Source: an uncultured Alphaproteobacteria bacterium (GTDB lineage Bacteria; Pseudomonadota; Alphaproteobacteria; Rhodobacterales; Rhodobacteraceae). Taken from it: a stretch of 51,905 bases of DNA. Below are positions 12,373 through 31,087 of the stretch, piece after piece (within the stretch, counting starts at the first letter, position 1; each line of letters starts with the position of its first letter). The stretch is taken from assembly GCA_902599445.1 (NCBI GenBank), contig CACKFK010000010.1:1-51905 (forward strand). Reading direction: 5' to 3'. A model generated the notes under the pieces. That model was not told the DNA's origin, did no database searches, and saw only the letters and a program-made list of their open reading frames with translations. Made by a program: the position numbers and the translations under genes.

Positions 12373-12695
12373 AAGTTTACAAAGTAAATTGGATTAGTTT
12401 ATCCAACCTATGACTTTGGGATCACTTGTCAGTATAGAAAACTGTTGTGAATTTATTTAATTGATTTTGATAATTTAAGGTAAGATTAAGGATGTACTTT
12501 CCTTATTTTCTAAGTGTTTTCCCTTATTTAATGATTTTGTGTCAAATTATAGTTATCATTATCTTAAAAGGATTGATTCTTTTTTTCTTGACGCAACGGT
12601 GGTTTTTATAGTGATATTCAGGTAACGTCTATGCAAACGTTCGCATGAATTTTTTAAGACACCTCGCAGTTAAATAGTGTGGAGAACTGATTGGG
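12373..12695. other. Intergenic region ahead of the SsuABC-type importer operon
   Basis: A 323-bp AT-rich stretch. It holds one LacI-type palindrome at 12632-12645, 50 bp before the ATG of the ATPase gene. A TTGACG hexamer is at 12588, but no -10 box lies at good spacing; TAACGT at 12623 is a weak candidate. No small gene or riboswitch was recognised. Confidence 0.5.
12632..12645. promoter_or_regulatory. LacI-family operator candidate 1
   Basis: TGCAAACGTTCGCA is a 14-bp palindrome around a central CG, with one mismatch between arms. It fits the LacI-family pattern TGCAANCGNTTGCA and matches the sites flanking the lacI-type gene near 27.5 kb. It is 50 bp upstream of the importer ATPase start, so binding would block the importer promoter or early transcription. 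Confidence 0.7.
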
Positions 12696-13505
12696 ATGAC
12701 TAAAAATGACCCTATTATTGTGGCGAGTGATCTAACTATCGCATACGAACTCCACCGAGAAAGAAAGAAACTAGTAGCTTTACAAGATATATCTTTAGCG
12801 GTGGATCCCGGAGAATTTGTAGTTTTAGTTGGTCCTTCTGGTTGCGGTAAAACCAGCTTTATAAACGCGATTTCTGGGTTAGTTCCTAAGGCAAGTGGGA
12901 GTGTTACTGTGAGGGGTAGTGAAGTAACTGGTCCCGGGCCTGATCGGGCGATGGTATTTCAAGATTATGCGCTGCTTCCTTGGCGAACAGTTGAGTCAAA
13001 CGTCAGAATGCCATTTGAATTTCAGGACCTCGGCATATCTGAAGCAGAAAAAAATAAACGTGTAAAGGAATGCCTTGAATTAGTTGATTTGACAGGTTTT
13101 GAGAAATCTTTTCCGTACGAGCTATCGGGAGGCATGAAACAACGAGTAGGAATAGCTCGGGCATTGATAACGAATCCTGATATTCTACTTGCGGATGAAC
13201 CTTTTGCGGCTATTGATGCAATGACCCGAGAAGCAATGCAGGCTGAAATGGAGCGGATTGTTATGGAGACAGGTCAAACTTGCGTTTTCATTACACACTC
13301 CATCGATGAGGCAATTTTGCTGGGAGATAGAGTTATTGTTATTTCTTATAGGCCTGGAAAAATAAAAGAAGTTGTTAATGTAAATTTCCCCCGACCACGA
13401 ATGAGTAATTCAGCTGTTAAAACGTCAAAAGAATATGCGGAACTTCGAGATCATATATGGAATTTAGTGAAAGATGAGGCCTCGCAAACCAATAGAGGAG
13501 AGTAA
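12696..13505 (+). CDS. ABC transporter ATPase, SsuB/TauB type
   Basis: ATPase of a nitrate/sulfonate/taurine-type importer, 269 residues. Walker A is GPSGCGKTSFIN, the Q-loop is VFQDYALLPWRTV, the signature is LSGGMKQRVGIA and Walker B is ILLADEPFAAID; the switch His is in FITHSID. All are intact. It is the first gene of the operon, followed after 2 bp by the permease gene. Substrates of this subfamily include sulfonates, nitrate, pyrimidine precursors and aromatic acids such as phthalate, so the name does not prove sulfonate transport. Confidence 0.95.
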   Translation: MTKNDPIIVASDLTIAYELHRERKKLVALQDISLAVDPGEFVVLVGPSGCGKTSFINAISGLVPKASGSVTVRGSEVTGPGPDRAMVFQDYALLPWRTVESNVRMPFEFQDLGISEAEKNKRVKECLELVDLTGFEKSFPYELSGGMKQRVGIARALITNPDILLADEPFAAIDAMTREAMQAEMERIVMETGQTCVFITHSIDEAILLGDRVIVISYRPGKIKEVVNVNFPRPRMSNSAVKTSKEYAELRDHIWNLVKDEASQTNRGE

Positions 13506-13507
13506 GA

Positions 13508-14389
13508 ATGGCGGCTACAAAAAATAAGTCCCTTCAGCAATTTGATACTGATGATCCAAATCGTATCCAAGATATAGGTTGGACGTTTAAGGAGGTGTGG
13601 CGTCGTACGCGCGGCACGGTAGTTGTCTCGATAAATCTTATTACGTTCTTCATTTTGTGGGAGCTAGTGGTGATCTATGGTGATATCAATCCATTATTTT
13701 TGCCGAAAGCTTCTGAAATGTTTGCAGAGTTGTGGGTTGGTTTGACGACCCGCGCTCCGGAAGGAGCAGTATTTTCAGGAAGCATATTAGATCACTTTTT
13801 GCACAGCTTTAATAATTTAATGTTTGGGCTTGCTATTGCTTGTTTGATTGGCATTCCTGGTGGGTTATTAATGGGCGGAAACAAATATATCGAGTCCATT
13901 TTAAGTCCCTACGTATGGGCATTAGCTTCATTGCCAAGAATTGCACTTGTACCTTTATTCATTTTATTTCTTGGTTTCACGACAAAAATGCAAGTTACCA
14001 TAATAGTCATTTCAGCAGTGTTTCCAATTATGATTAATTCTTGGGCTGGTGTTAAAACAACCGAGAAGTCTTTGTTAGCAGCTGCACGCGTTTTTGGGGC
14101 AAATAGGGTGCAATTATATGTCAAAGTTGTTTTGCCTTACACATTACCATTTATAATTTCTGGTATCCAACAGGGTATCGGTAGAGGTTTGATTGGGGTT
14201 GTTATTGCAGAGTTGTTTGGTGGTTCGAGCGGCTTAGGTTACCTCATTCAAAGATCCGCGGACACATTTAATACCGCCATGACTTTCGCTGTTTTGTTAC
14301 TACTTATTGTGATGTCACTGTCACTAATAAATTTCACAAGATGGTTAGAAGCATACGTGGCTCCGTGGCGAAACGTGAACCATATTTAA
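13508..14389 (+). CDS. ABC transporter permease, SsuC/TauC type
   Basis: Inner-membrane permease of 293 residues with about six membrane segments. The N-terminal tail (about 45 residues) is hydrophilic, then ITFFILWELVVIYGDI starts the membrane domain; PLFLPKASEMFAELW is a family block. The EAA loop is LLAAARVFGANRVQLYVKVVLPYTLPFI, and the C-terminal GLGYLIQRSADTFNTAMTFAVLLLL is typical. A strong ribosome-binding site (GAGGAGAG) lies in the end of the ATPase gene. Confidence 0.94.
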   Translation: MAATKNKSLQQFDTDDPNRIQDIGWTFKEVWRRTRGTVVVSINLITFFILWELVVIYGDINPLFLPKASEMFAELWVGLTTRAPEGAVFSGSILDHFLHSFNNLMFGLAIACLIGIPGGLLMGGNKYIESILSPYVWALASLPRIALVPLFILFLGFTTKMQVTIIVISAVFPIMINSWAGVKTTEKSLLAAARVFGANRVQLYVKVVLPYTLPFIISGIQQGIGRGLIGVVIAELFGGSSGLGYLIQRSADTFNTAMTFAVLLLLIVMSLSLINFTRWLEAYVAPWRNVNHI

Positions 14390-14426
14390 AGTGAATTGAA
14401 TTCACAAATCCATAGGGAGAAAAAAA

Positions 14427-15491
14427 ATGGCACTTAAAAAACAAAAAACACAAATATTATTACCCAGGAGAGAAGTCTTACTTTCTGGTTCTCTTGGAGC
14501 ATTAGGAATGGCAATTGGCGCTTCTGCGATTCCATTCAAAGGCGCCTTTGCTATGGACGCCGCAGCGGTTCAATCTAGCGTAAGTAAAATTCGCATGGCT
14601 GATTGGAATCCCAATTATGCGGCTCAGTGGTCCTGGAGACTCGCTCAATTCAAAGGCTTTTTTGAAGATGGGGGGATAAATGAAATTGATTTCTATCTAA
14701 CTGATACTTACTTTCCCGGTTTGATTGGCGGTAGTTTAGATGTTGCTCACTCTGATGTTGATGTGTTATTCGGCTCGGCGGCTAAAAGTGGTGCTCCCCT
14801 AAAATTGTTAAGTGTTTATCGAGATAAAGAATGGTGGATCATGGGAGTAGGTAAAGGCATTGATACTTTTGAAGATCTAAAGGGAGGAAAGGTATCAGGC
14901 GGAGGCCTCGGAGGACGTAACACTTGGATCCAACGTCAAATTTTAATTGAGAACGGTATTGATCCTGATAAGGATGTTGAAATGGTTCCGATGAAAGGTG
15001 GTTCCGATGGTCGTATGAAGGCTATCATTGCAGGAGTCATCCAAGGTGGGTCTGTATTTCCACGTCACGAAAAAGGGATTAAGGACAATGGAGGAAAATT
15101 CATATCTGCCTATATTAAGGAAGTTCCGCAGGAAGGATTTATTACAAATATGGAGTGGGGTGCTAAAAATGAAGACGCCTTGTATGCGTGGCAATACGCC
15201 GAGTTAAAAGCGCGACAGTGGCTACACGATCCTGCAAATAAAGATTCAGCTTATGCTGAGATGCGGGCTAAAGGCTTTGATATTCCTCCTGAATTTGAAG
15301 CCCAATATGAGACTGAGTTAAACCAGATATGTAAAGATGGTGGATTTACAGAAGCCTCCATGGATAGCTTTGCTCAAGGGGTTAGGGATCTGGGTCAGGT
15401 GCCACCAGATTTTGATTGGCGCGATGCCGTTGATTTACGTTTCTTGCATGCAGCTCAGGATGCATTGGGAATCCCACGCAGACCTGCATAA
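14427..15491 (+). CDS. NMT1/THI5-like ABC substrate-binding protein with Tat-like signal
   Basis: Receptor of the importer, 354 residues. The N-terminus has a twin-arginine-like LPRREVLLSG, a hydrophobic stretch, and a possible cleavage after FKGAFA near residue 42, pointing to Tat export; the second motif position is not perfect. The mature part shows the fold's features: KIRMADWNPNYAAQWSWRLAQFKGFFEDGGI, GGSLDVAHSDVDVLF and DTFEDLKGGKVSGGG. The ribosome-binding site is strong (AGGGAG). A terminator follows at once, so this is the last gene of the three-gene unit. Ligand unknown; position in the LacI regulon suggests it imports the inducing compound. Confidence 0.9.
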   Translation: MALKKQKTQILLPRREVLLSGSLGALGMAIGASAIPFKGAFAMDAAAVQSSVSKIRMADWNPNYAAQWSWRLAQFKGFFEDGGINEIDFYLTDTYFPGLIGGSLDVAHSDVDVLFGSAAKSGAPLKLLSVYRDKEWWIMGVGKGIDTFEDLKGGKVSGGGLGGRNTWIQRQILIENGIDPDKDVEMVPMKGGSDGRMKAIIAGVIQGGSVFPRHEKGIKDNGGKFISAYIKEVPQEGFITNMEWGAKNEDALYAWQYAELKARQWLHDPANKDSAYAEMRAKGFDIPPEFEAQYETELNQICKDGGFTEASMDSFAQGVRDLGQVPPDFDWRDAVDLRFLHAAQDALGIPRRPA

Positions 15492-15511
15492 ATTATAAAA
15501 AGAAAATGAAC

Positions 15512-15547
15512 ATCGGGGTCAAAGTATTTTGGTCCCGATTTTCTTTA
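15512..15547 (+). terminator. Rho-independent terminator after the importer operon
   Basis: ATCGGGGTCAA at 15512-15522 pairs with TTGGTCCCGAT at 15529-15539 (11 bp including two G-T wobbles, 6-nt loop) and is followed by TTTTCTTTAT. It starts 20 bp after the binding-protein stop codon and separates the importer from the GST genes. Confidence 0.85.
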
Positions 15548-15585
15548 TAAGGATGCTGGCACTTCCTTAGAGTGAAAGAATAATT

Positions 15586-16521
15586 ATGGGTATGTTAATA
15601 AATGGAAAGTGGGATCCAGACGCGAAAGGTACTACAGCTTCTGATGGCAGTTTCGTCAGACCTGAATCCCCTTATCGACGTGTCATAACAAGTCCAAAGG
15701 ATGGAACGTATCCTGCTGAAAAAAACAGATATAATTTGATTGTATCTTTTGCTTGCCCATGGGCCCATAGAACTCTCATTTATCGATCTATTTTAAACCT
15801 AGAGGATATTTTGGACGTATCGGTAGTTAATCCAATTAGCTACCCCAATGGCTGGACTTTTGAGAGTTCCAATGATGTGCTAAATAATACTGGACTAGAG
15901 TTAAGGTATTTACGCGATCTATACCTTTCGATCGATGAGAACTTTACGGGGAAAGTTACTGTACCTACACTGTGGGATAAGAAGACCCAAACCATTGTAA
16001 ACAATGAATCCTCTGAGATTATCAGAATGCTGGATGGACCATTTTGTGAACTTATAGGAGAGAGTAGAGGTAAAATGTTTGGCGGATACCCGCTCTCTGA
16101 AATTGATGAAATGAATGAATTCGTATATAAGGGCCTGAATAACGGTGTTTATAGGGTGGGTTTTGCAACTAGCCAAATCGCTTATGAGAAAAGTGTTGAT
16201 CTTCTTTTCAAAACCTTAGATCAGTTAGAGCAAGTTTTGGGGAAATCGGATTTTCTTTTAGGAAAAGACGCTTGTGAGTGTGATTGGCGTCTTTTGCCCA
16301 CCTTAATTCGGTTCGATACGGTTTATTATTATCACTTCAAATGTAACCTTAGAAAATTAAAAAGTTACAAAAATTTATCAAAATACATGGACCGACTTTT
16401 AAGTTTTCCCAAAGTTCGTAACACTATATTTCAAGATCATATAATTGATCATTATTACTTATCACATTTAAAGATAAATCCTTTTGGGATCATACCAATT
16501 GGAGTAAGAAATCATATATAA
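15586..16521 (+). CDS. Glutathionyl-hydroquinone reductase (Xi-class GST, YqjG/PcpF type)
   Basis: A cysteine-type GST of 311 residues that removes glutathione from glutathionyl-hydroquinones. The diagnostic block is SFACPWAHRTLIYRSIL near residue 53, with the active cysteine in CPWAH; upstream is the expected WDPDA...DGSFVRPES segment, and downstream YPNGWTFES and the VPTLWDKKTQTIVNNESSEIIRML block. E. coli YqjG is 328 residues, so length is normal. It opens a GST trio on the plus strand. In aromatic degradation (PcpF, LigG-like roles) such enzymes rescue conjugates formed by other GSTs. Confidence 0.9.
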   Translation: MGMLINGKWDPDAKGTTASDGSFVRPESPYRRVITSPKDGTYPAEKNRYNLIVSFACPWAHRTLIYRSILNLEDILDVSVVNPISYPNGWTFESSNDVLNNTGLELRYLRDLYLSIDENFTGKVTVPTLWDKKTQTIVNNESSEIIRMLDGPFCELIGESRGKMFGGYPLSEIDEMNEFVYKGLNNGVYRVGFATSQIAYEKSVDLLFKTLDQLEQVLGKSDFLLGKDACECDWRLLPTLIRFDTVYYYHFKCNLRKLKSYKNLSKYMDRLLSFPKVRNTIFQDHIIDHYYLSHLKINPFGIIPIGVRNHI

Positions 16522-16536
16522 AATAGGGGTAAAATC

Positions 16537-17340
16537 ATGCTGACTTTATATCATTACGATAGATCGACGGCTGCACAAAGAGTGCGCCTGGGACTTGAGG
16601 AAAAGAAAATAGAGTGGCATAGTGAGATTGTGGACACTGCCATGGGAGACGCGAGCAAAAGGCCGGAGGGGTTTCACGAGTTAAACCCAAAAGGCCTTAT
16701 TCCTCTCTTGGTTCATGATGGATTTGCTCTACCCGAGTCAACATTAATTCTTGAATATTTGGAAGAAGCATTCCCAGACCACATTAGGCTAACGCCTCAC
16801 TCCCCTCAGGATCGAGCGAGAATGCGACTATGGATGCGGCGCATAGAAGATGGAATTCATGTAGCTAGTCGGACCATCGGAGTTTGTATCGTTAATCGCT
16901 TCATTTATAAAGAGGCAGATAAATCGAAACTTGAGGATTACTATAAAAAAATGCGTGACACGACACGCAAAAATAATGATCAAATTAATATAGAAATGGG
17001 CTTAGATTCCCCACTTTTAAAGCCTTCTATTGATGCATTTAAGAAGCTTTTCAAGGACATGAATGATCAGCTTTCGGAAACACCATGGTTATCCGGTGAC
17101 GACTATTCTATCGCTGATATTTCTTTGGTTGTATATTTAACCAGAATGTCATCTTTTCAAATGGCACCTCTGTGGCATGATTTTTCTTATTTACAAAGTT
17201 GGTTTGAAAAGATTAAGGCTCGAGATGCCTACAAAAGGGCGGTTGATGATTGGGGCGATATAACAGCGGATAAAAGAAAGGTCGAGGGACAAGCCGCTTT
17301 TGAAACAATAAAATTGCTTTGGGAGGCGCCCTCGCAATAA
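16537..17340 (+). CDS. Glutathione S-transferase, LigF/beta-etherase-like
   Basis: A cytoplasmic GST of 267 residues. The N-terminal thioredoxin fold starts MLTLYHYDRSTAAQRVRL with Ser in the catalytic region, then ELNPKGLIPLLVHDG (cis-Pro) and LPESTLILEYLEEAFPD. The helical domain contains MRLWMRRIEDGIHVASRTIGV, which in pattern (tryptophan, D/E-rich, S-T-I-G) recalls LigF-type beta-etherases of lignin-dimer breakdown, and PWLSGDDYSIADISLVVYL. It starts 15 bp after the previous gene with an AGGGG ribosome-binding site, so the two are co-transcribed. The beta-etherase link is a resemblance judged by eye, not a demonstrated function. Confidence 0.85.
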   Translation: MLTLYHYDRSTAAQRVRLGLEEKKIEWHSEIVDTAMGDASKRPEGFHELNPKGLIPLLVHDGFALPESTLILEYLEEAFPDHIRLTPHSPQDRARMRLWMRRIEDGIHVASRTIGVCIVNRFIYKEADKSKLEDYYKKMRDTTRKNNDQINIEMGLDSPLLKPSIDAFKKLFKDMNDQLSETPWLSGDDYSIADISLVVYLTRMSSFQMAPLWHDFSYLQSWFEKIKARDAYKRAVDDWGDITADKRKVEGQAAFETIKLLWEAPSQ

Positions 17341-17369
17341 GGTGCATTATTCAGTGAAAGGATAAAGCA

Positions 17370-18179
17370 TTGTCAATCGAATTATACAATTTTTCCCAGT
17401 CGACATGCAGTATAAAGGTTAGGCTTCTACTTGCTGAGAAAAAACTGCCTTGGATTGATAAATGCCTAGTTTCGTCTGAAAATCAGCATTTATCAGATTG
17501 GTATCTCAAACTTAATCCTAATGGAGTGGTCCCAACTTTGATAGATGGTGGACAATCTATTTTCGAATCGACTGCAATATTAGAGTATCTTGAGGACAAA
17601 TATGATAAGATTAGTTTTCGTCCCAAAGATCCATTCTTGTGCAGTCAAGTAAGAGCATGGTTGGTTTTTACAGACGTATGGCCAACTCCAGCCGTAAGAG
17701 TGCCCTCGTTCCAATATGGTGGGTTAAGGGAAAAATTTAAGGTTATGAGCGATCAAACTTTTAAAGCTCTCAGGAAAAAGCGTCCACTGAAAGTAGAGTT
17801 CTATGAGTCTTTTGATAAATATGATGGGTTTCATTTGAGTGAAGTTTACAATTCTTTCAAAGTATTATTACGCTCTTTTAAAAGGATGGAACTATTACTC
17901 GAAAAATTTAGTGGGCCTTGGTTATTTGGCAAAAAATACACCATTGGAGATATAGCTATACTTCCAACGGTGGACCGATTAGAGGATCTTGGTTTTGATG
18001 CGCTCTGGAGATTAGCTTATCCTAGAGTTGCTGATTGGTTAAGAAATGCCCAAGAACGTAGTGCAACAAAAAAGACTTTCTATCATGGGAGTAGACTTTC
18101 CCATCAATTCCCCAACTTAGTACGGGGAGCAGGGAGTAACGATAAAATTGTAAGGGAATTCTTAAATTCAATAGATTAA
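17370..18179 (+). CDS. Glutathione S-transferase family protein (paralogue of the GST at 29109)
   Basis: A GST of 269 residues: IELYNFSQSTCSIKVRLLLAE, LNPNGVVPTLIDGG, ESTAILEYLEDKYD, and GPWLFGKKYTIGDIAILP. It shares many blocks with the GST at 29109, including SQSTCS, NPNGVVPTL, the RVPS segment, the KRPLKVEF/KPLRREF segment and the C-terminal FYHGS. The start is a TTG at 17370 with a GAAAGGA site at good distance. The insert between the two GST domains (about residues 95-160) is longer than in ordinary GSTs. Substrate unknown. Confidence 0.85.
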   Translation: MSIELYNFSQSTCSIKVRLLLAEKKLPWIDKCLVSSENQHLSDWYLKLNPNGVVPTLIDGGQSIFESTAILEYLEDKYDKISFRPKDPFLCSQVRAWLVFTDVWPTPAVRVPSFQYGGLREKFKVMSDQTFKALRKKRPLKVEFYESFDKYDGFHLSEVYNSFKVLLRSFKRMELLLEKFSGPWLFGKKYTIGDIAILPTVDRLEDLGFDALWRLAYPRVADWLRNAQERSATKKTFYHGSRLSHQFPNLVRGAGSNDKIVREFLNSID

Positions 18180-18212
18180 ACTTGGATATTAAATCGGAAC
18201 AAGTTTTTTTAT
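18178..18212 (+). terminator. Candidate terminator after the GST trio
   Basis: AAACTTG at 18178-18184 can pair with CAAGTTT at 18200-18206, followed by TTTTATTTT. The loop is long (15 nt) and the stem AT-rich, so strength is doubtful, but position just at the stop codon and the T run support it. Confidence 0.45.
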
Positions 18213-18276
18213 TTTGTAGGGTGATAGAGATTATCAATAATGTTAGGAGGCTATTTTATAATTGTTTAGAGAATGT

Positions 18277-18305: not shown

Positions 18306-18307
18306 TG

Positions 18308-18321
18308 GGCAAACGTTTGCT
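18308..18321. promoter_or_regulatory. LacI-family operator candidate 2
   Basis: GGCAAACGTTTGCT contains the perfect 12-bp palindrome GCAAACGTTTGC. It lies 2 bp after the -10 box of the promoter at 18277-18305, covering the expected transcription start, the classical place for repression. Confidence 0.8.
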
Positions 18322-18333
18322 GGGAAGTGAAAA

Positions 18334-19911
18334 GTGCAATTTGACTTTATTATCGCCGGAGCAGGGCACAATAGTCTGATCACTGCGTGTTACTTATCAA
18401 AAGCCGGGTATTCTTGTAAAATAATAGACGCTCGTGCCATTCCAGGAGGTGGATGCGCAACGGAAGAGGTCTTAGGGCCTGGGTATAAAATTGACACCTG
18501 TTCAACAGGACACACTTTGATTCTTCAAAATCCAATAATAAAGTTAGATGAGTTAGGAATTGTCGAAAAATATGGACTTTCCTACTTGCACCCAGATCCT
18601 GTTGCTCATGTTGCTTTGCCAGATGGTGAACAGATTACTATGTTTCTCGATGTGAAAAAAACAGTCAAAGAACTAGAAAGGTACTCTAAGTCCGATGCCC
18701 TAAATTATGAGCGACTAATTGATGAATTTAATGAGTTACGACCGCTCCTTGGTAAAGCTCGATCCGGTCCCATTGGCCTTGTTCCAAGTCTACAAGATTT
18801 ATTGAAAGATCAGCCTCGTGGCGGTATTTGGTTGCGAAGAATGGCGATGAGCGCAAAAGATGTGATCTTGCATGAATTTGAAAGTCCTCATGTTAGGGCA
18901 TTTATGGGCTGGATGACTTTTCAAACTGCTGTACCAATAGACCAGGCAGGAACAGGCTTATTACCGTATCAAATAACTGCACCTAGACAATCAAATAGCT
19001 GGTCTATTCCAAAGGGCGGTTCAGGAAAGTTAACAGAGGCATTAGTAAATTTTCTCAAAGATAACGGAGCAGAATTCACATATAATGCTGTCGTAGGGAA
19101 TTTAATCATAGACAATGGGCGCTGCATAGGCGTTAGAACTGTGGATAATAAAGAATATTATGGAAAAAAAGGCGTTATTTCCACAATACATATTAAACAT
19201 TTAGTAGACATGGCGCCTAAAGAGCTTTGGGGCGAAAGTTTTCTTTTTGGTGCAGAGACTTACAACGTTGGAGTACCTTTTTTCTCAACATATCTTTCGA
19301 CCTCAGAACCGCCCATTTTTAAAACGCCAAGGGGCCCAAGATCAGCTGTATCAGCTGGTTATGCCGGCTGGTTTGGAGACCTTGTTCAGTCGGGGAGAGA
19401 TATCTATGATGGTAAATTGTCCGAAAAGGTTACTTGGTTACTAGTAGCAACCCCTACACTTGTTGACCCATCGAGAGCTCCTCACGGTCATCATACAGTT
19501 AAGTTTTTAACTCATACGATCTATGATTTGCCTGAAAAAGGACCTAATGGATGGAGCGATCTAAAAACAAAATTTGCAGAAACCTTAATGAGAAAAATTC
19601 AAGAGTTCTGTCCAACTTTTACTGATGACATTATTTTAGATCGGATGGTTAAATCCCCAGTGGATATTGAAATCTGGAACCGGCATATGATAAATGGTGC
19701 TCCTCATGGAGGCGATAGATCTGTTGCATTTTCCGGAGCTCAGAGGCCTGCCCCAGGGTGGGCACAGCACAGAATGCCAATAGAGGGGCTATGGCAAACA
19801 GGTGGGACAACCCACCCAGGAGGTTCAATTACAGGTTATCCAGGCCGAAATGCGGCGATCGTAGTTCTTAAAGATCTTGGAGTAAATCCAGCTGATACGA
19901 TGATTTTCTAA
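18334..19911 (+). CDS. FAD-dependent oxidoreductase, phytoene-dehydrogenase/PYROXD2-like
   Basis: A flavoprotein of 525 residues. The N-terminal dinucleotide motif is FIIAGAGHNSLITACYLSKAGYSCKIIDA, with GGGCATEEVLGPGYKIDTCS after it, and the C-terminal FAD block reads GLWQTGGTTHPGGSITGYPGRNAA. The layout is that of CrtI/PYROXD2-type amine or carotenoid oxidoreductases, but no carotenoid genes are present. The start is a GTG at 18334 preceded by GGGAAG. It has its own promoter and overlapping LacI-type operator. It ends 1 bp before the end of the opposing hydrolase gene. The substrate is unknown; context points to catabolism of the regulon's compound. Confidence 0.88.
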   Translation: MQFDFIIAGAGHNSLITACYLSKAGYSCKIIDARAIPGGGCATEEVLGPGYKIDTCSTGHTLILQNPIIKLDELGIVEKYGLSYLHPDPVAHVALPDGEQITMFLDVKKTVKELERYSKSDALNYERLIDEFNELRPLLGKARSGPIGLVPSLQDLLKDQPRGGIWLRRMAMSAKDVILHEFESPHVRAFMGWMTFQTAVPIDQAGTGLLPYQITAPRQSNSWSIPKGGSGKLTEALVNFLKDNGAEFTYNAVVGNLIIDNGRCIGVRTVDNKEYYGKKGVISTIHIKHLVDMAPKELWGESFLFGAETYNVGVPFFSTYLSTSEPPIFKTPRGPRSAVSAGYAGWFGDLVQSGRDIYDGKLSEKVTWLLVATPTLVDPSRAPHGHHTVKFLTHTIYDLPEKGPNGWSDLKTKFAETLMRKIQEFCPTFTDDIILDRMVKSPVDIEIWNRHMINGAPHGGDRSVAFSGAQRPAPGWAQHRMPIEGLWQTGGTTHPGGSITGYPGRNAAIVVLKDLGVNPADTMIF

Positions 19912-19912
19912 T

Positions 19913-21133: not shown

Positions 21134-21147
21134 CGAAAACGATTGCA
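21134..21147. promoter_or_regulatory. LacI-family operator candidate 3 with adjacent inverted repeat
   Basis: CGAAAACGATTGCA keeps the central CG and one full half-site (ATTGCA), with a weaker left arm. It lies 70 bp before the minus-strand hydrolase start and 97 bp before the plus-strand one. Overlapping it, TTGCATA-CTT-TATGCAA at 21143-21159 is a perfect 7-bp inverted repeat that may be a second binding site. Confidence 0.5.
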
Positions 21148-21244: not shown

Positions 21245-22153
21245 ATGGAAACAAACCCTGGAAATATAGTTTTGACCGAAACTGTAAATGGGCAGGCTGT
21301 GACTCTCATGATGATAGAGGTTTGGGATGGTTTATACGCTCCAGTTGGAGTTAGAAAACCAGATGGGGACGGTCCGTTCCCAATGGTTCTTTTGGCTTCG
21401 GGCAATGGTGGTGAAGGAATGGAATGGATTAAAGATTCAATGCGCAACAGGGCTTACACCGTTGATAAATTGGTAGAAGCAGGTTTTGCATGTGCTTGGA
21501 CAAGATATAGGACAGAAGTTGAGCTTGGTTATAACAACGGAGGAAAATTGATCCGTGATATTAGGCAAGGGAGAGAAATGTTTAATCGATCCCCATTAGA
21601 GTACGAGGATGAAATTGCTATTGCTGATTATTTTAAAACTGTGCCATGGGTGGATGCAAAAAGATTGTCAATGATAGGTATGAGCCATGGTGGAGAGATG
21701 GTTTTAAAAATGACATCAGAATACCATGGATTTGCAGCAGCCATCGCAAGTGAGCCTGCTAGTCATGAATTTCTTGCCTTAAAACCTGATGATACAGCAT
21801 TTATTAATGAAGAAACTGGGTTGCGAAATATTGAAGAAATGCAAATGGCAGAGGTTGATAAGGTGCGTAGGCGCATAGACCTAACTGTAGCGATGAGACG
21901 AATAGAAAACATAAATACGCCTATTCTCGTAATGGGTCGAGATAAAGATCATTTGCAAGGCATTTTTAGGACCTCCTACGATCTTCTGGCGGAGAGTGGC
22001 AAAAATGCTGACTGGGTTTCATATGATCACGACTATCATGGGTATATTTTCCCAATTCGCGGTAAGGATGGAAAGTATATCTTAAATAAAGTTCAGGAAG
22101 AGGCCATAGCATTTGTAATTGCATGGTTAAAAGAGAAACTCAGTGTAACGTAA
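21245..22153 (+). CDS. Dienelactone-hydrolase-like alpha/beta hydrolase
   Basis: A serine hydrolase of 302 residues without signal peptide. PFPMVLLASGNGGEGMEW is the oxyanion region, the nucleophile elbow is IGMSHGGEMVLK, the acid is probably Asp in MGRDKDHLQGIF, and the base His is in YDHDYHGYIFPI. The fold resembles dienelactone hydrolases or prolyl-oligopeptidase-like esterases. An AAGGAG ribosome-binding site precedes the ATG. It is divergent from the hydrolase at 19913 and precedes the Gfo/Idh/MocA operon by 119 bp, with which it may be co-transcribed. Substrate unknown. Confidence 0.83.
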   Translation: METNPGNIVLTETVNGQAVTLMMIEVWDGLYAPVGVRKPDGDGPFPMVLLASGNGGEGMEWIKDSMRNRAYTVDKLVEAGFACAWTRYRTEVELGYNNGGKLIRDIRQGREMFNRSPLEYEDEIAIADYFKTVPWVDAKRLSMIGMSHGGEMVLKMTSEYHGFAAAIASEPASHEFLALKPDDTAFINEETGLRNIEEMQMAEVDKVRRRIDLTVAMRRIENINTPILVMGRDKDHLQGIFRTSYDLLAESGKNADWVSYDHDYHGYIFPIRGKDGKYILNKVQEEAIAFVIAWLKEKLSVT

Positions 22154-22272
22154 CAAAATGACGATAACCAAAGGTTAAAACAATCATAACGAACAAATGA
22201 GTATAAGGTATGCTAAAGTTTTAAGAGTTAATAATATTTTAAATCTAAGATTTAAGTATGGGAGTTTATCAA

Positions 22273-23331
22273 ATGGATAAATTGGAGGTTGGTATTGTTG
22301 GATTAGGTCGTTGGGCAAGAGTCCTAACACGAGCATCGACTTTGTCTGAGAAAGTTGAAATTGTCGTTGGCTTTAGTCGATCGGCTGATACTAGATCCAA
22401 ATTCGAGGAGGAAACAGGAATACCTTCAGTTTCTTCATTAGATGAGATGTTGTCTAGGGATGATATAAAAGGTGTGATTTTAACAGTGCCGAACGAGCAA
22501 CATTATCCAGTTGCTCTTCAAGTCGCAAAAGCTGGAAAACATGTTTATACGGAAAAGCCTATTGCACATAATCTAGAACATGGTTTAGCAATTGAAAAAT
22601 TACAGGCTGAGTTTGGGATAACGGTCACGGTGGGCCATTCTGCACGACTTTTGGGAGGAGTCCAAGAAATTAAGAAAAGAATTACTGCCGGAGAACTTGG
22701 AAAAGTAGGTTTTTTTGAAGCAAACTTTTCTAATGAGAGAGCATTGGAACTGACACCAGATACTTGGCGGTGGTATAAAGATCGTGCTCCTGGAGGACCT
22801 TTGTCTCAGCTTGCGATACATATGTTTGATGTAGTGAATTACCTTGGTGCAGATATCGTGGAAGCGTCATCGATTGCTTCTAAGCTTTCTCCTGTCGGTG
22901 CTGAGGTGGACGATCAGTCCATGACCTTACTCAAATTCTCTGATGGTGCTATTGCTTATATCGGCACCTGTTGGACATCACCGGGAATATTCGCGTTGCG
23001 TGTTTTTGGTTCAAAAGGCCTAATACACTATGAAATAGATTTTGGTACTTGGGATACGCCGGAAGAAATAAAGAATAGCTCTACTTTTTATATTCAAAGA
23101 GGAAAAGATGGGTTTGGAAAACGTGAAGTGCTGTCGGAGCCTGAAACTAATATGTTCACCGCGGAGCTAGATATCTTTGCTGATAGTTGTAGATCTGGAA
23201 AAACTTCTGTTTTATCTGCTGAAAACGGAAATGAAGCCGTTGCCTGTGTTTATGCAGCTCTCTCTTCAATAGAGCGAAATGGAGCGGGGGTAAAATTGTC
23301 AGAGGTAATAGAGGCAGCGAGCAAAAAATGA
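22273..23331 (+). CDS. Gfo/Idh/MocA family NAD(P)-dependent oxidoreductase
   Basis: A sugar- or polyol-type dehydrogenase of 352 residues. The Rossmann motif is VGIVGLGRWARVLTRA, the cofactor/catalytic block is GKHVYTEKPIAHNLEHG near residue 90, and the C-terminal domain begins around residue 125. The ATG at 22273 is preferred over 22258 because GGGAG lies 8 bases before it. Its last codons overlap the next gene by 4 bp. It opens a tightly coupled operon with a creatininase-family hydrolase, a cupin and a D-2-hydroxyacid dehydrogenase. Substrate unknown. Confidence 0.92.
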   Translation: MDKLEVGIVGLGRWARVLTRASTLSEKVEIVVGFSRSADTRSKFEEETGIPSVSSLDEMLSRDDIKGVILTVPNEQHYPVALQVAKAGKHVYTEKPIAHNLEHGLAIEKLQAEFGITVTVGHSARLLGGVQEIKKRITAGELGKVGFFEANFSNERALELTPDTWRWYKDRAPGGPLSQLAIHMFDVVNYLGADIVEASSIASKLSPVGAEVDDQSMTLLKFSDGAIAYIGTCWTSPGIFALRVFGSKGLIHYEIDFGTWDTPEEIKNSSTFYIQRGKDGFGKREVLSEPETNMFTAELDIFADSCRSGKTSVLSAENGNEAVACVYAALSSIERNGAGVKLSEVIEAASKK

Positions 23332-24098
23332 GCATAAAAACTAGGCTTTTTGCCGAACTAACGCAACCTGAAATTAAGTTCCAGCTAGAGAAAAATCCGC
23401 TTGTTTTATTTCCTACTGGGTCGGTTGAGCAGCACTCAGCACATCTTCCTGCAATCACGGATTCAATAGCCGCTACAACAGTATCCGAGTTAGTAGCTGC
23501 TGAAATGGACGGCTTAGTATTACCTGCTCCTGCTGTGGGTGTCACGCCCATGCACATGCCATACGAAGCCACGGTAACTTTGACTCCCGCAACTTTCCAA
23601 CGGGTCGTGATTGAAATTTGTGAGAGTGCAGCTCAGCATGGTGCAAAAAATCTCATGATCGTTAATTGGCATGAGGGAAATATTGCATCCTTGAGCATTG
23701 CGGCGGAAGAACTTCACCGCAGAGTAGGATATAGAGTGATCGTTGTTCAGGCGTGCTACGTTGCAGAGGAATTATGGGGAGATAATTGTGGTGGGTTAAC
23801 ACATGCCGGTGAGATTGAAGCATTAGCAGTAATGGCTACCCGACCTGATCTCGTTCATTTAGATCGGATTACGGGTGGGTCCGACAAGCGGCAGGGACAG
23901 CATATGGACAAGCTTCGACGAACGCGATCTTTTCAGCCTGTACTCACAGATATACGGAATATAGCTCCATCTGGATGGTACGGAAATCCAGAACCGGCAA
24001 CCGAAAAGCGAGGGCAGGGCATGATGAAAGAGATTGCTGAATATATTGCCTGTGAGGCGACTGAACTATTTGATCAATTAAAGACGGTTCTTCGCTAA
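23328..24098 (+). CDS. Creatininase family metal-dependent amidohydrolase
   Basis: A 256-residue protein of the creatininase/MftE family. The metal-ligand block is FPTGSVEQHSAHLPAITDS (Glu, His and Asp in the family positions), then VNWHEGNIAS (His) and LTHAGEIEALAVMATRPD (Glu). The set of ligands looks complete. True creatininase opens creatinine to creatine, but the family also contains amidases for other cyclic or peptide substrates, so the function is open. The ATGA overlap with the dehydrogenase before it and the TAATG junction with the cupin after it indicate translational coupling. A creatinase-like M24 gene and urease lie further downstream in the window. Confidence 0.9.
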   Translation: MSIKTRLFAELTQPEIKFQLEKNPLVLFPTGSVEQHSAHLPAITDSIAATTVSELVAAEMDGLVLPAPAVGVTPMHMPYEATVTLTPATFQRVVIEICESAAQHGAKNLMIVNWHEGNIASLSIAAEELHRRVGYRVIVVQACYVAEELWGDNCGGLTHAGEIEALAVMATRPDLVHLDRITGGSDKRQGQHMDKLRRTRSFQPVLTDIRNIAPSGWYGNPEPATEKRGQGMMKEIAEYIACEATELFDQLKTVLR

Positions 24099-24475
24099 TG
24101 ATAAGTTTTGTCAGTTCAAAAGAAAGAAAGCGGCTTAAATTACCCGGTAGAGATTCTTCGGAGTTGATGTCGAAGTCATTTGGTTCGTCTTCCACCACAG
24201 TCCGAATAGTGGAGATAGAACCTGGACCAATCAAACGGGGACCACATTTGCACGATACCTTTGAAGAGGTCATTCACGTGCTAGAAGGTGGCGGTCTGCT
24301 AAAAACGAGTGAGGGTGATTTTATACTTAGTAAAGGTGATACGGTTTGCATACCCGCTGGTGTACTCCATCAGACCATAAATAATACAGATGCAATTCTC
24401 CGTCTAATTTGTTTGTTTCCAGTCCATGACATAAAGTATGGAACTAAAGAGTTAGAAAGTTGGAGTAATGCCTAA
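24098..24475 (+). CDS. Small cupin-domain protein
   Basis: A single-domain cupin of 125 residues. Motif 1 is RGPHLHDTFEEVIHVLEGGG (two His, Glu) and motif 2 is GDTVCIPAGVLHQTINN (His), so all four metal ligands are present. Such proteins act as isomerases, lyases, dioxygenases or small-molecule sensors. It is embedded in the operon by 1-bp and 8-bp overlaps with its neighbours and so likely acts in the same pathway, perhaps as isomerase or epimerase. Confidence 0.88.
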   Translation: MISFVSSKERKRLKLPGRDSSELMSKSFGSSSTTVRIVEIEPGPIKRGPHLHDTFEEVIHVLEGGGLLKTSEGDFILSKGDTVCIPAGVLHQTINNTDAILRLICLFPVHDIKYGTKELESWSNA

Positions 24476-25421
24476 AGTTTTATCGCTTCGGCCATTGAAA
24501 GATTTTTATGATTTAGGCGTTTACCCATCGGAAAAACTCTTCGTTTCTGATTTGGATCCTTTACATCCCTACCTGGGTGAGAAAATTTCTAGTGTTGATG
24601 CAGTTATATTACCGGCTGTGGGAATAAAAATTGATAGTTCTTTATTTGAAACCAGTGAAATTAAATTAATCCAAATCACTGGAGCTGGTTTTGATAGGTT
24701 AAATGTAATAGAACTGCGGGAGTTAGGAATTCCAGTTGCAAATATTCCTGGTGGATCTGCAAGTACCGTTTCTGAATACGTACTCACGGTAACATTATCC
24801 CTATTAAGTAATTTAGGCTATAGTACGTCACGTATTCTTCAGGGAGAGTATAGTAGTTTAAGGCATGAACTTATCTCTAAAGGCATAAACCAACTTTCTG
24901 GTTTGACTATAGGAATTATCGGCTATGGTATTATCGGTAAAGCGGTCAAAAGAGCCTTTGAATTTTTTGAAGCCAAAGTTAATTTTTGCGATCCTTGGGT
25001 AGCAGGCAGTTTAGAATTGCCTGACATTTTGTCAGGATCAGATGTCGTCTCAGTACATGTTCCTTTAAATGATGAAACTATGAACCTGATTGGTATTAAT
25101 GAATTAAAAGCTATGAAACCCGGTTCGATATTAATTAATGCCTCACGTGGTGGCGTCGTGGACGAGGATTCATTAGTGAAAGTGCTGAATGAGGAACATC
25201 TTGGAGGTGCTGCTATAGACGTATATTCTCAAGAACCTTTAACCACCCAAAACCCCTATTTACAGTTAAGTGAGAAAGCTGCTAAACGAGTGATACTTAC
25301 TCCCCACCTAGCGGGGATATCTCGTCAGGCTTGGACTAAATTATTTAAAGAATCATGGAAAAATATTGAACGAGTGCTCTTAAATGATGAATTTCCCAAA
25401 TTTGTTGTCAACCAGGAGTGA
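24468..25421 (+). CDS. D-isomer-specific 2-hydroxyacid dehydrogenase
   Basis: A 317-residue NAD(P)-dependent dehydrogenase for 2-hydroxyacids. The NAD motif is GIIGYGIIGKAVKRAFEFF near residue 145. Catalytic residues fit the family: Arg in INASRGGVVDEDSL, Glu in the DVYSQEPL region, and His in ILTPHLAG. It starts within the cupin gene (8-bp overlap) and ends the operon, 25 bp before the opposing amidohydrolase gene. It probably makes or consumes a 2-keto acid from the operon's substrate. Confidence 0.93.
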   Translation: MPKVLSLRPLKDFYDLGVYPSEKLFVSDLDPLHPYLGEKISSVDAVILPAVGIKIDSSLFETSEIKLIQITGAGFDRLNVIELRELGIPVANIPGGSASTVSEYVLTVTLSLLSNLGYSTSRILQGEYSSLRHELISKGINQLSGLTIGIIGYGIIGKAVKRAFEFFEAKVNFCDPWVAGSLELPDILSGSDVVSVHVPLNDETMNLIGINELKAMKPGSILINASRGGVVDEDSLVKVLNEEHLGGAAIDVYSQEPLTTQNPYLQLSEKAAKRVILTPHLAGISRQAWTKLFKESWKNIERVLLNDEFPKFVVNQE

Positions 25422-25446
25422 CGCGATTACAAAAATTAGCTTGAAA

Positions 25447-26403
25447 TCATACTTTTAGTAGTTTCTGTGCGTTCTTATAAAAAATAGCAGCTTTGATCTC
25501 AGCGTCTATTGGAGCGTTTTTTAACCAATTTACGCCAGATTGATTACTTGCATAGGGCCAATCTATGGCAAACAAGATACGATCTGTATCTAACACTTTT
25601 AAGCAAAGTTCTAATGCTGTGTTAGAGAAAAACCCACTGGTGGTAATCCAAAAATTAGATTTAAATATTCGCTCAAAATTCATCTGCTGACCATTTTCCC
25701 TAGCAAGACTTTCTTGGATCCGTGGCAACCAAAAGGGTAAAGCCTCACCTAAGTGTCCTAAAATAATTCTGAGGTTGGGGTGCTTGTCAAAAATACCAGA
25801 AAGTATCATTCGAATTGCCTGGGTCCCAGCTTCGACCCCAAATCCCCATGCGGCTCTTGTCAACATTGGATGACTTTGATCATAAGGAGAATAGTATCTT
25901 GCCGTGACAGCTTTATCTGGTAATGCAGGATGCAAATATATTGGAACATTCAGTTTTTCCGCTTGAGAAAATATTGGCCAAAAAAACTTTTCATCAACCA
26001 TTCTTCCTGCACTAAGACCATGAATCATAGCTCCTTTTAAACCAAGTTCTTCCACGGATCTTTTCAATTCAGCTGCCGCAGCGGTTGGTAAATTTGTTGG
26101 TAACATTGAAAAACCAAGAAACCTACTTGAATTGTCTTCAATAATTTTAGCTAGTGCATTGTTCACATTTTTACATGCCTCAATGGCTACCTCATCAGGT
26201 AAACGTTGGCTCCCTGGTGATTGATGCGATAGTATTTGAACGTCAATGCCTGCGGCATCCATCTCGGAAATTCTTATTCCGGTGAAATCAAATAATCTAT
26301 CACTTATGTTTTTGGGTTGTTTAGCAGCATGCCCTAAATGATTTGCTAGAGCAGGATGCATGAAATGCTCCTCTACCGCCATTATTTTTTGCGTATATTT
26401 CAT
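25447..26403 (-). CDS. Amidohydrolase-2 family decarboxylase, gamma-resorcylate decarboxylase-like
   Basis: A TIM-barrel metalloenzyme of the ACMSD/amidohydrolase-2 family, 318 residues. The metal ligands follow the pattern of gamma-resorcylate (2,6-dihydroxybenzoate) decarboxylase: MAVEEHF in place of HxH near the N-terminus, His in PIYLHPALPD, His in IILGHLGEALPFW, and Asp in FAIDWPYASN. This suggests non-oxidative decarboxylation of a hydroxy-aromatic acid, or hydrolysis of a related compound. The ATG at 26403 is chosen over 26433 because the extra ten residues look non-conserved. It lies 34 bp after the lacI-type gene and is probably co-transcribed and autoregulated with it. Confidence 0.85.
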   Translation of the reverse strand: MKYTQKIMAVEEHFMHPALANHLGHAAKQPKNISDRLFDFTGIRISEMDAAGIDVQILSHQSPGSQRLPDEVAIEACKNVNNALAKIIEDNSSRFLGFSMLPTNLPTAAAAELKRSVEELGLKGAMIHGLSAGRMVDEKFFWPIFSQAEKLNVPIYLHPALPDKAVTARYYSPYDQSHPMLTRAAWGFGVEAGTQAIRMILSGIFDKHPNLRIILGHLGEALPFWLPRIQESLARENGQQMNFERIFKSNFWITTSGFFSNTALELCLKVLDTDRILFAIDWPYASNQSGVNWLKNAPIDAEIKAAIFYKNAQKLLKV

Positions 26404-26437
26404 GAGAATTTTGTATCCTGATTGAAAAGACAATAAC

Positions 26438-27460
26438 TTAATTTTTGGGTGGGCAGACGCTTCCTCTTTCTACTACAGTGACTGGCATGATTGTAGTTTC
26501 TGGAACTGGTATATTTGTTTCCTTCATTTTTTTTATTAAGATTTCAGCAGCTATGCGTCCAACGTCAAATTGTAATATCTTAACAGTAGTTAACCCTGGA
26601 GGAATCCGCTCTAAAAAAGGTATGTCATTAAAACCTGTGAGCGAGATATCTTCGGGGCATTTTAAACCTCGATCTTGTAAAGCGTCTATCGCACCGATTG
26701 CTAAACGATCATTGGCGCATAAAATGGCCGTTATGGACTGGCAACCATCCAAAATTTTCTCAGTCGCTACTTTTCCGGCTTCTTCTGAATAAGCTGCCGC
26801 TGAGACCACAGCACTCTTGTTAGGCTTTATACCATGTTGTGACATAGAGTTAAAAAACGCATCTTGTCTAGCTATTCCTGTGTAAGAATGCTCTGGGCCT
26901 GCCAAATGCCCAATTCTATTATGTCCCGCTTTGATAAGCAATTTTACCATAGAATGAATCCCTCCCTTATCATCGTTCACCACGGAAGGAATTCCAGAAC
27001 CAATAGCCATACGGTTAGCAGTGACAATTGGAATTTCGGTTGAGTAACCCACTACAGAATGATCATGAGCCGTTATCGCAGCATCGATAATCCCGTCGAC
27101 CCCGCGCTCCATTAATACTTGAATAAACTTTTTTTCTTTACTTGGATCGTTATCGGTATTTACAAGAATAGACGCGTAACCTGCAGGCTCTAAAATGCTT
27201 TCTACCCCACGAACTATAGGAGGAAATACTGCATTTCCGATATCTGGAATAATTACTCCTATCGACATAGTTTTTTTAGTTCTGAGGCCCAATGCGACCA
27301 GGTTAGGCCTATAACCCATTTGATCAGCTTTTGCCCTGATCTTTTCTACAACTACTTCCGAAAGAGAAGAACTTGCATTTTTCGATAGAGCCCTTGACAC
27401 GGTCGAAACATGCACTCCTGTCTCTCGAGCAACATCTTTAATTGTAATATTCTTTCTCAT
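26438..27460 (-). CDS. LacI-family transcriptional regulator
   Basis: A repressor of 340 residues. The N-terminal helix-turn-helix and hinge are clear: TIKDVARETGVHVSTVSRAL, then YRPNLVALGLRTKKT, followed by a periplasmic-binding-protein-like ligand domain (IGVIIPDIGNAVFPPIVRGVE, LAGPEHSYTGIARQDAF, ISLTGFNDIPFLERI). The ATG at 27460 is chosen over 27511 because GGAAGG precedes it and because 27511 falls inside the palindrome at 27503-27516. VSTVSRAL in the recognition helix fits operators with a central AANCGNTT, the pattern found five times in this window. It is divergent from the osmC-like gene. Its effector is unknown. Confidence 0.95.
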   Translation of the reverse strand: MRKNITIKDVARETGVHVSTVSRALSKNASSSLSEVVVEKIRAKADQMGYRPNLVALGLRTKKTMSIGVIIPDIGNAVFPPIVRGVESILEPAGYASILVNTDNDPSKEKKFIQVLMERGVDGIIDAAITAHDHSVVGYSTEIPIVTANRMAIGSGIPSVVNDDKGGIHSMVKLLIKAGHNRIGHLAGPEHSYTGIARQDAFFNSMSQHGIKPNKSAVVSAAAYSEEAGKVATEKILDGCQSITAILCANDRLAIGAIDALQDRGLKCPEDISLTGFNDIPFLERIPPGLTTVKILQFDVGRIAAEILIKKMKETNIPVPETTIMPVTVVERGSVCPPKN

Positions 27461-27502
27461 AAAAAGCCTTCCAAAGCTTCTTATAGTTGATTCTAATTTA
27501 TG

Positions 27503-27516
27503 TGCAAACATTTGCG
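27503..27516. promoter_or_regulatory. LacI-family operator candidate 4 (lacI side)
   Basis: TGCAAACATTTGCG carries the palindrome GCAAA-CA-TTTGC, 43 bp upstream of the lacI-type start on the minus strand. A TAGAAT box for minus-strand transcription lies just past it, so the site would overlap the promoter and give autorepression. Confidence 0.7.
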
Positions 27517-27556
27517 TAAAACTGTTGACCCTGAGATTCCCTTTAGATAAGCTGGG

Positions 27557-27570
27557 TGCAATCGTTTGCA
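27557..27570. promoter_or_regulatory. LacI-family operator candidate 5 (osmC side)
   Basis: TGCAATCGTTTGCA is symmetrical except at one position. It is 24 bp before the ATG of the osmC-like gene. A TTGACC at 27524 and a weak TAAGCT at 27548 precede it, so the palindrome lies just past the -10 box, the same geometry as the 18308 site. Centre-to-centre distance to operator 4 is 54 bp, about five helix turns, which would allow looping. Confidence 0.75.
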
Positions 27571-31075: not shown

Positions 31076-31087
31076 ATGGAGAAAATT

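Follow-up and report, generated by a model that had tools for sequence, protein, structure and literature searches.

The window, by which we mean the whole stretch of 51,905 nucleotides analysed here, comes from an uncultured relative of the roseobacters and carries five similar palindromes around a gene for a LacI-family regulator, raising the question whether this regulator controls the surrounding genes through these sites. An earlier note had proposed this and assigned to the system the import and catabolism of one compound. All five palindromes were found again (12632, 18308, 21134, 27503 and 27557) and all are intergenic. The features are listed below, the operators without strand and with their score in the main matrix.

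12632..12645: predicted operator TGCAAACGTTCGCA, upstream of the ABC importer, score 18.8
12696..15491, plus strand: ABC importer with ATPase, permease and SsuA/NMT1-like substrate-binding protein (family searches for the binding protein only)
15512..15539, plus strand: terminator-like hairpin 3' of the importer, with the most pairs in its class (12)
15586..18179, plus strand: three glutathione transferases; LigF is the best solved match of two, and the other is a member of the glutathionyl-hydroquinone reductase (YqjG/Xi) family
18308..18321: predicted operator GGCAAACGTTTGCT, at about +2 of the predicted FAD-gene promoter TTGACA-17-AATAAT, score 14.8
18334..19911, plus strand: FAD enzyme, CrtI/CrtO-like, under the curated cut-offs of the CrtI/CrtO models
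19913..21064, minus strand: FrsA-like alpha/beta hydrolase (family searches)
21134..21147: predicted operator CGAAAACGATTGCA, between the FrsA-like hydrolase (minus) and the alpha/beta hydrolase (plus), score 19.9
21245..25421, plus strand: putative operon of alpha/beta hydrolase, Gfo/Idh oxidoreductase, creatininase-like protein, cupin (named by sequence reading) and D-2-hydroxyacid dehydrogenase
25447..26433, minus strand: amidohydrolase-2 decarboxylase-like gene, 4 bp downstream of lacI
26438..27460, minus strand: lacI gene, 340 aa, start MRKNITIKDVARETGVHVSTVSRAL, HTH and periplasmic-binding-protein-like effector domain
27503..27516: predicted operator TGCAAACATTTGCG, lacI side of the twin operator, score 15.3
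27557..27570: predicted operator TGCAATCGTTTGCA, osmC side, at about +3 of the predicted osmC promoter TTGACC-17-TAAGCT, score 22.5
27596..36852, plus strand: putative operon beginning with osmC-like, HIBADH-like, GST3, FrsA-like hydrolase and DddP-like M24 genes, and including E1 alpha and beta of a 2-oxoacid dehydrogenase, lipoyl protein and aldehyde dehydrogenase (osmC, E1 beta and lipoyl protein named by sequence reading)
37013..39632, plus strand: 2Fe-2S and molybdenum hydroxylase-like pair, membership uncertain, named by sequence reading

The gene list for 9363-39632, of which 6.7% is intergenic, was set by hand from the open reading frames, with starts at 27460 for lacI (the later start, picked by reading), 27596 for osmC (judged by eye) and 29103 for GST3. 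We placed the lacI start at MRKN because the match to the Pfam LacI domain does not set in until residue 23 of the 357-aa ORF, just after this start. Given the lacI and osmC starts, none of the five sites overlaps a gene; if the longest ORFs were taken instead (lacI from 27511, osmC from 27556), these two genes would run into the last two sites. Searched with the longer ORF, the LacI protein matched Pfam LacI (6.9e-11) and Peripla_BP_3 (5.6e-33) above the cut-offs.

To score the sites we used a matrix built from 124 sites upstream of lacI in 71 loci of relatives, the window and its three closest relatives (L046-L048) being excluded. This matrix, an even palindrome with central CG (C 0.98 at the centre), ranked exactly the five sites first in the window, with scores of 14.8-22.5 and the next match at 9.6. 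Four of the five have the central CG, while 27503 has CA, the weakest centre. Whole-genome scans were done with patterns at few mismatches, not with the matrix. In the 1.70 Mb draft genome of the window, which is 60% complete, YGCAAWCGWTTGCR at up to one mismatch occurs at four places, all in the cluster (control 1), so that strict matches do not run into the hundreds, and GCAAACGTTTGC at one mismatch occurs at six, four of them in the cluster (control 2). The 18308 site is not among the four strict YGCAAWCGWTTGCR matches because its outer bases differ, and under a first, smaller matrix (12 sites) it was, alone of the five, at chance level (0.74 expected per window). Looser criteria discriminate weakly: at three mismatches the window holds nine matches vs 3.3 in shuffles, and the 12-mer at two mismatches gave no genome-wide excess (51 vs 50 in the reversed control).

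We then asked if the sites are conserved before orthologous genes. At score 14 a site precedes the importer orthologues in 7/7 cases, those of the FrsA-like hydrolase in 8/8, those of the FAD enzyme in 8 of 11 intact copies and lacI in 72 of 80 loci, these being the best 80 of 381 relatives, counted once per locus after a second LacI-like hit in L063, 27% identical, had been set aside. With 300 column-permuted matrices the mean numbers of sites were 0.01 (importer), 0 (FrsA-like), 0.08 (FAD) and 0.14 (lacI), with maxima of 3, 0, 8 and 12, respectively. Most of the lacI loci tested had also served to train the matrix; in a split test a matrix from L071-L125 only recovered 24 of the 25 loci L046-L070. 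The patterns used to select the 80 loci contain the recognition helix, so that helix conservation among them is by construction, which does not apply to the operators, and some loci are the same genome reached twice, e.g. G090 and L046. The LacI relatives are 40-92% identical. Among the best 80 of 381, a twin operator with 51-57 bp spacing lies before lacI in 51, and at score 12 six have no site and 20 only one. In many loci of Alphaproteobacteria lacI is found together with parts of the gene set, and the sites occur with lacI across many genera. In G090, a 97% complete genome, the cluster is kept, four of the five sites score at least 13.5 and the fifth, the counterpart of 27503, scores 12.2.

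The weakness of the 18308 site bears on a narrower explanation, in which the regulator would act on its own gene and the neighbouring osmC and hydrolase operons alone, with fortuitous or remnant sites at the importer and the FAD gene. Besides the lowest score of the five and its chance level under the smaller matrix, three of the 11 intact FAD orthologues have no site, nor does a broken twelfth copy (L146) that retains its 5' end; matches dropped from the count were L144, L145 and L147, which have no 5' end, and L146, which has an internal stop. The importer site, however, is present in all seven orthologues, in one genome (G296) even with the importer on a different contig from lacI, and four of the FAD orthologues with a site reach scores of 22-23, making such a restriction highly improbable.

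Next, we considered whether the sites serve a different LacI-family regulator whose helix is similar, or several regulators sharing one motif class. Similar sites (score at least 12) accompany 3 of 19 other LacI-family genes, indicating that the motif class is not exclusive and that close subfamilies share similar palindromes. In larger genomes of relatives strict matches beyond the cluster exceed the control (G014 39 vs 12, G201 20 vs 8, G165 14 vs 1), so that the motif may serve other genes or regulators there. A LacI-HTH search found one LacI-family gene in the genome of the window, from which, at 60% completeness, another regulator could be missing. In G090, by contrast, where cluster and sites are kept, the search found only one LacI-family gene besides the orthologue, and its recognition helix differs (VSVPTVSR vs VHVSTVSR in the window). 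Together with the presence of the sites alongside lacI across many genera, this renders control by another regulator very unlikely. Two additional strict sites of G090 fall within ORFs, and a strong site in G158 (18783 of L035) lies inside a gene.

A third explanation is a global regulator of central carbon metabolism resembling PckR or GapR, with pckA as target. The window contains pckA (39629-41233), the gene lies near lacI in three relatives (L081, L085, L099), of three pckA orthologues examined one has a site no farther than 300 bp away, and pckA is a predicted target of both PckR and GapR in the part of the RegPrecise survey used here (PMC4052901). The pckA gene of the window itself has no site above 9.6 nearby, and we rejected it as a regulon target in the window despite the one orthologue. 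The strict sites of the genome, as far as its 60% completeness reaches, are confined to the catabolic cluster, whereas gapR and pckR are, by their description in the same part of the survey, mostly not clustered with their targets across genomes (PMC4052901). We therefore give a global regulator of this kind very little credence.

The interpretation that a local, autoregulated LacI-family repressor regulon governs the island is thus strongly favoured by the sequence comparisons, in agreement with the proposal that LacI acts through all five sites. From the positions of the sites we infer repression rather than activation. In the best or near-best predicted promoters of the target genes the operator centres lie at -0.5 to +14.5 from the start, and the 27503 operator overlaps the -35 element of the predicted lacI promoter; such proximity to predicted transcription starts suggests repression. 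The FAD promoter score of 9.0 exceeds the 99% null quantile of 8.6, the other promoter scores are within the null range, the importer promoter is the third-ranked candidate, and promoter-like matches in the region are not enriched (36 vs 49 in shuffles). The regulator (26438-27460), probably a dimer, would bind the 16-bp palindromes YGCAAWCGWTTGCR near the transcription start at four promoter regions, those of the importer, the FAD enzyme, the divergent hydrolases and the osmC operon, and would also occupy the operator over its own promoter, resulting in autoregulation. The genes would stay off as long as no effector frees the regulator; this effector is probably the compound taken up or an intermediate.

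The regulon probably comprises about 21-26 genes, which makes the original estimate of about a dozen too low and ties 20 or more genes into one testable pathway. Consistent with putative operons, no site precedes genes inside them in relatives (GST3 0/53, PdhB 0/24, PdhA 0/22, ALDH 0/21). Only 2 of 11 relatives show a site no more than 300 bp from the alpha/beta hydrolase gene, and in G158 and G201 this gene is separated from the site by importer-type genes. An operator lies within 300 bp of M24 orthologues in 17 of 38 relatives, and in Roseibium marinum (L064), a cultured relative, sites are located upstream of the HIBADH, M24 and amidohydrolase genes. At the thresholds used, neither the FAD enzyme nor this importer turned up in R. 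marinum, and the genomes in which the FAD enzyme was found are metagenome or single-cell records. The 2Fe-2S and molybdenum hydroxylase-like pair has the same order in G090. Co-transcription of the decarboxylase-like gene with lacI, as had been suggested, is plausible from the 4-bp gap, and its orthologue has its own operator in 6 of 20 relatives. The hairpin at 15512-15539 may separate the three glutathione transferase genes from the importer operon; terminator-like hairpins as a class are not significant (16 found vs 15.8 expected in shuffles). Thus, the idea of one regulon for import and catabolism holds up, while a single compound would be a further step, given that the hairpin may split off the transferases.

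Which compound might be handled? A phenolic or aromatic compound processed with glutathione is our leading, still tentative candidate from the enzyme families, with a sugar-like compound as the alternative. LigF is the best solved match of GST1, GST2 and GST3, a matter of sequence likeness only (the three E values, in order of strength, are 2e-19, 6e-18 and 5e-16), and GSTx belongs to the hydroquinone-reductase family. The best solved match of the amidohydrolase is 5-carboxyvanillate decarboxylase (2e-55). Within the same LacI group, 26 of the 80 loci (best 80 of 381 relatives) contain an intradiol dioxygenase; in three of them an operator stands in front of it, and one of these three was checked by Pfam. 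In the window no ring-cleavage gene was recognised. LigF-like transferases, a LigW-like decarboxylase and the dioxygenase of sister clusters together give a hint of a phenolic or aromatic substrate, which would be unusual for LacI regulators. A glutathione-dependent aryl-ether pathway (LigE/F/G) is known from sphingomonads. The window resembles it in its three LigF-matching transferases, its hydroquinone-reductase-type transferase and its LigW-like decarboxylase, but differs in that the transferase matches are at family level only (5e-16 to 2e-19). Somewhat more doubtful is the broader notion that a widespread alphaproteobacterial group of LacI-family repressors governs glutathione-dependent phenolic or aryl-ether breakdown in two locus types, one with decarboxylase, FAD enzyme and M24-type protein, the other with intradiol dioxygenase and beta-keto-acid cleavage enzyme, both with GST3 and the twin operator. 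If it were true, an aromatic-derived effector would be sensed by a family whose known members are nearly all sugar sensors, and the range of compounds that LacI regulators are thought to sense would widen.

Finally, we compared the system with known ones. In the part of the RegPrecise survey used here, 103 of 107 effector-assigned LacI-family groups take carbohydrates, and the operator spacing peaks named are 13, 22 and 32 bp (PMC4052901). Local regulons described there share with the window an even palindrome with central CG, clustered genes, a lacI that is divergent and autoregulated, and sites that mostly lie no more than about 140 bp from starts, whereas the twin spacing of about 54 bp lies outside those peaks and the enzymes look non-sugar, unlike the carbohydrate-bound groups (PMC4052901). 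By the part of Camas et al. 2010 considered, the helix VHVSTVSR gives V,S at AA-15/16 with TVSR, and the operator G at NT-6 fits the arginine at AA-20 of the TVSR recognition group (PMC2978694). In titles and abstract openings of the literature searched, which leaves out most subscription journals, no description of this regulon was found; the proposed LacI-family regulon is new, of an already known type. Metagenome and single-cell genomes of Rhodobacterales contain the system, cultured relatives have smaller versions, and its operator can serve in the search for further members and as a readout for the inducer.

The M24 protein matches the model of DddP, a DMSP lyase, over nearly its full length, but an assignment as DddP was rejected as its 109 bits are far under the curated NCBIfam equivalog cut-off of 600. 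For plasmid homologues in Phaeobacter, Marinovum and Paenarthrobacter (L126-L128), the stretches covered contain neither an operator scoring above 13.5 nor an annotated LacI gene, indicating that the M24 gene also occurs outside the regulon. The motif GYRTCYYRT of the protein is kept in 35/35 orthologues.

All five LacI-type palindromes that the earlier note had claimed around the lacI gene (26438..27460, minus strand) are present in the window, at 12632, 18308, 21134, 27503 and 27557. Their claimed intergenic placement held as well: given starts of 27460 for lacI and 27596 for osmC, all five are located in intergenic DNA, which makes up 6.7% of 9363-39632. Both starts were chosen by reading of the sequence, 27460 being favoured since in the longer ORF the Pfam LacI domain starts only with residue 23. 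Loose matching yielded 9 matches in the window against 3.3 expected, a modest excess only, and at two mismatches the 12-mer occurred 51 times in the window genome versus 50 in the reversed control, i.e. without excess. At one mismatch to the 12-mer six places in the 1.70 Mb genome remained, four of them window sites, and YGCAAWCGWTTGCR at one mismatch was found in four places of the window genome, all being window sites. The same-genus genome G090 (97% complete) has five strict places, three within the cluster and two outside it, both within ORFs. Nine larger genomes of relatives gave 7 to 39 strict matches each versus 1 to 12 in the control, indicating that the motif there also occurs outside the cluster. 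A strong operator-like site (score 21.0) lies within an importer-type gene of the relative G158 (locus L035, 18783-18798).

Of 295 family genomes examined, 10 besides the window's own contain a LacI relative with 47-92% identity, the next relative having 35%. A scan of named genomes, some of which duplicate genomes of the family search, gave 381 relatives; the best 80 were kept, mostly from Rhodobacterales, Roseibium and Rhizobiaceae. The palindrome pair recurs upstream of lacI in these relatives, with a spacing of 51-57 bp in 51 of the 80 loci (at least 170 bp upstream available), the others having a differently spaced pair (3), a single site (20) or none (6; threshold score 12). A weight matrix trained on 124 of the relatives' sites upstream of lacI (71 loci, with neither the window nor L046-L048 among them) ranked the five window sites first (22.5, 19.9, 18.8, 15.3 and 14.8; next score 9.6). 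As lacI promoters served as training material, a second matrix was built from L071-L125; applied to L046-L070, it recovered a site in 24 of 25 lacI loci.

The claimed regulon is borne out as far as sequence comparison reaches, with sites preceding orthologous importer, FrsA-like hydrolase, FAD enzyme and lacI genes. At threshold 14 a site was present in all seven importer promoters (permuted-matrix mean 0.01), all eight FrsA-like promoters (0), 8 of 11 intact FAD promoters (0.08) and 72 of 80 lacI promoters of the best 80 of 381 relatives (0.14). The promoters of the FAD enzyme and the permease were extracted from searches of 30 genomes, with 14 and 7 matches, respectively; the FAD count omits three fragments without 5' ends, and a twelfth copy with a 5' end, carrying an internal stop (L146), had no site in its promoter. 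The relative G296 carries its importer on contig C9 but the FAD gene and lacI on contig C3 (385126 bases), lacI being ~100 kb from the nearer end of C3. Gene order varies among relatives, implying that the sites track genes rather than neighbourhood. Within 300 bp no site was found for operon-internal genes, i.e. GST3 (0/53), PdhB (0/24), PdhA (0/22) and aldehyde dehydrogenase (0/21). Sites within this distance, some of them shared with lacI, were found for 18 of 18 OsmC, 17/41 HIBADH, 17/38 M24 and 6/20 amidohydrolase orthologues, 2/8 2Fe-2S genes and 2/11 alpha/beta hydrolases, importer-type genes separating the latter from the site in G158 and G201. For pckA the count was 1/3, and the window pckA (39629-41233) has no operator; pckA lies near this group's lacI in several genomes, namely in the window and in L081, L085 and L099. 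Altogether, 157 of 198 sites scoring at least 16 in the best 80 of 381 loci are near a called gene start (no more than 280 bp upstream of it or 120 bp into the gene).

Counting ORFs and inferring operon continuity, 21 genes would stand behind the operators: the importer (3), the FAD enzyme (1), the FrsA-like hydrolase (1), the run at 21245-25421 (5), lacI with the amidohydrolase (2), and osmC through aldehyde dehydrogenase (9). Three glutathione transferases (GSTs; 15586-18179) may or may not be members, raising the total to 24, and the 2Fe-2S and molybdenum-hydroxylase-like pair may also belong, giving 26. The following feature precedes the GST genes:

15512-15539, terminator-like hairpin with a T-rich tail, downstream of the gene for the substrate-binding protein and upstream of the three GST genes

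Relative to predicted promoter starts, the operator centres are at +2.5 (FAD), +5.5 (alpha/beta hydrolase), +3.5 (osmC), -0.5 (FrsA-like; two other candidates are nearly equal), +14.5 (importer; this candidate ranks third) and -36.5 (lacI itself). The FAD promoter alone scores above the 99% null quantile, and promoter-like matches were not in excess in a consensus scan of the region. The location of operators near the start of transcription suggests repression with autoregulation: LacI would block polymerase there, repressing the target genes, and act on its own promoter. As little sequence and no long extension follows the effector domain of LacI, the protein is probably a dimer rather than a looping tetramer. 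PMC4052901 reports a CG centre for 1173 of 1303 factors and autoregulation for 72%; in PMC2978694 arginine at AA-20 pairs with guanine at NT-6, as is the case for the window LacI.

The window genome has one LacI-family gene and G090 two, the second with helix VSVPTVSR. Three of 19 other LacI-family genes have an upstream site scoring at least 12, all three with helix VSTATVSR; in two of them T replaces C at one half-site position. This indicates that neighbouring LacI subfamilies use similar operators. Judged by sequence comparison, the system appears to be a local LacI regulon that is new, of an ordinary kind and equipped with an unusual enzyme set, and our literature search returned no title or abstract opening describing this regulon.

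According to PMC4052901, carbohydrate metabolism is controlled by 176 of the 182 LacI groups with an assigned pathway, and 103 of the 107 groups with an assigned effector have carbohydrates as effectors; the word 'aromatic' is absent from its main text. The window enzymes seem unlike a usual sugar pathway. LigF is the best solved match of GST1, GST2 and GST3, GSTx matches the YqjG/glutathionyl-hydroquinone reductase family (8e-82), the matches of the amidohydrolase are decarboxylases of 5-carboxyvanillate and gamma-resorcylate, and those of the FrsA-like hydrolase are Ayg1, FrsA and dihydroxy-pseudo-oxynicotine hydrolase. GST3 was found in 46 of 54 loci of at least 20 kb. In the fetched stretches of the best 80 of 381 same-group loci an intradiol dioxygenase occurs in 26 and a beta-keto-acid cleavage enzyme in 25; both adjoin lacI on an annotated Shinella plasmid, accompanied by a GST and by an importer of the branched-chain type. 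An operator precedes the dioxygenase gene in L072, L078 and L115 (Pfam-confirmed in L115). We tentatively consider a phenolic or aromatic substrate, at somewhat less than an even chance. Against it weigh the likeness of the GSTs, which is family-level, and the S-T-C-S stretch of GST2 and GST3, which resembles that of the zeta class (isomerases). Also against it, no ring-cleavage gene was recognised within the window, and the Gfo/Idh protein matches the inositol dehydrogenase model, below cut-off, so that a sugar or polyol is a possible substrate.

A tree was computed from 81 LacI proteins, namely those of the best 80 of 381 loci and that of the window; in it the window protein joins L046-L048 first and L056-L057 next (starred branches). 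The labels 'dioxygenase cluster' (5 changes) and 'HIBADH or M24 nearby' (11 changes) are clustered, none of 500 shuffles giving so low a number, but these locus types do not form two clean clades.

The M24 protein (31076-32395) belongs to the best conserved proteins of the island, with 73-99% identity in 35 relatives, and its motif GYRTCYYRT is kept in all 35 orthologues. By comparison with prolidase and DddP patterns, a Cys would replace a metal-binding Asp, so that the protein may be neither a peptidase nor a DMSP lyase. Two plasmid stretches from Phaeobacter and Marinovum (L126, L127), with no annotated LacI gene and no operator above 13.5, carry a module of M24, E1 2-oxoacid dehydrogenase, lipoyl and semialdehyde dehydrogenase genes with sugar-type importers and SDRs. 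In locus L049 the Gfo/Idh gene appears in four separate tblastn pieces (64-83% identity), which probably represent frameshifts or a broken copy.
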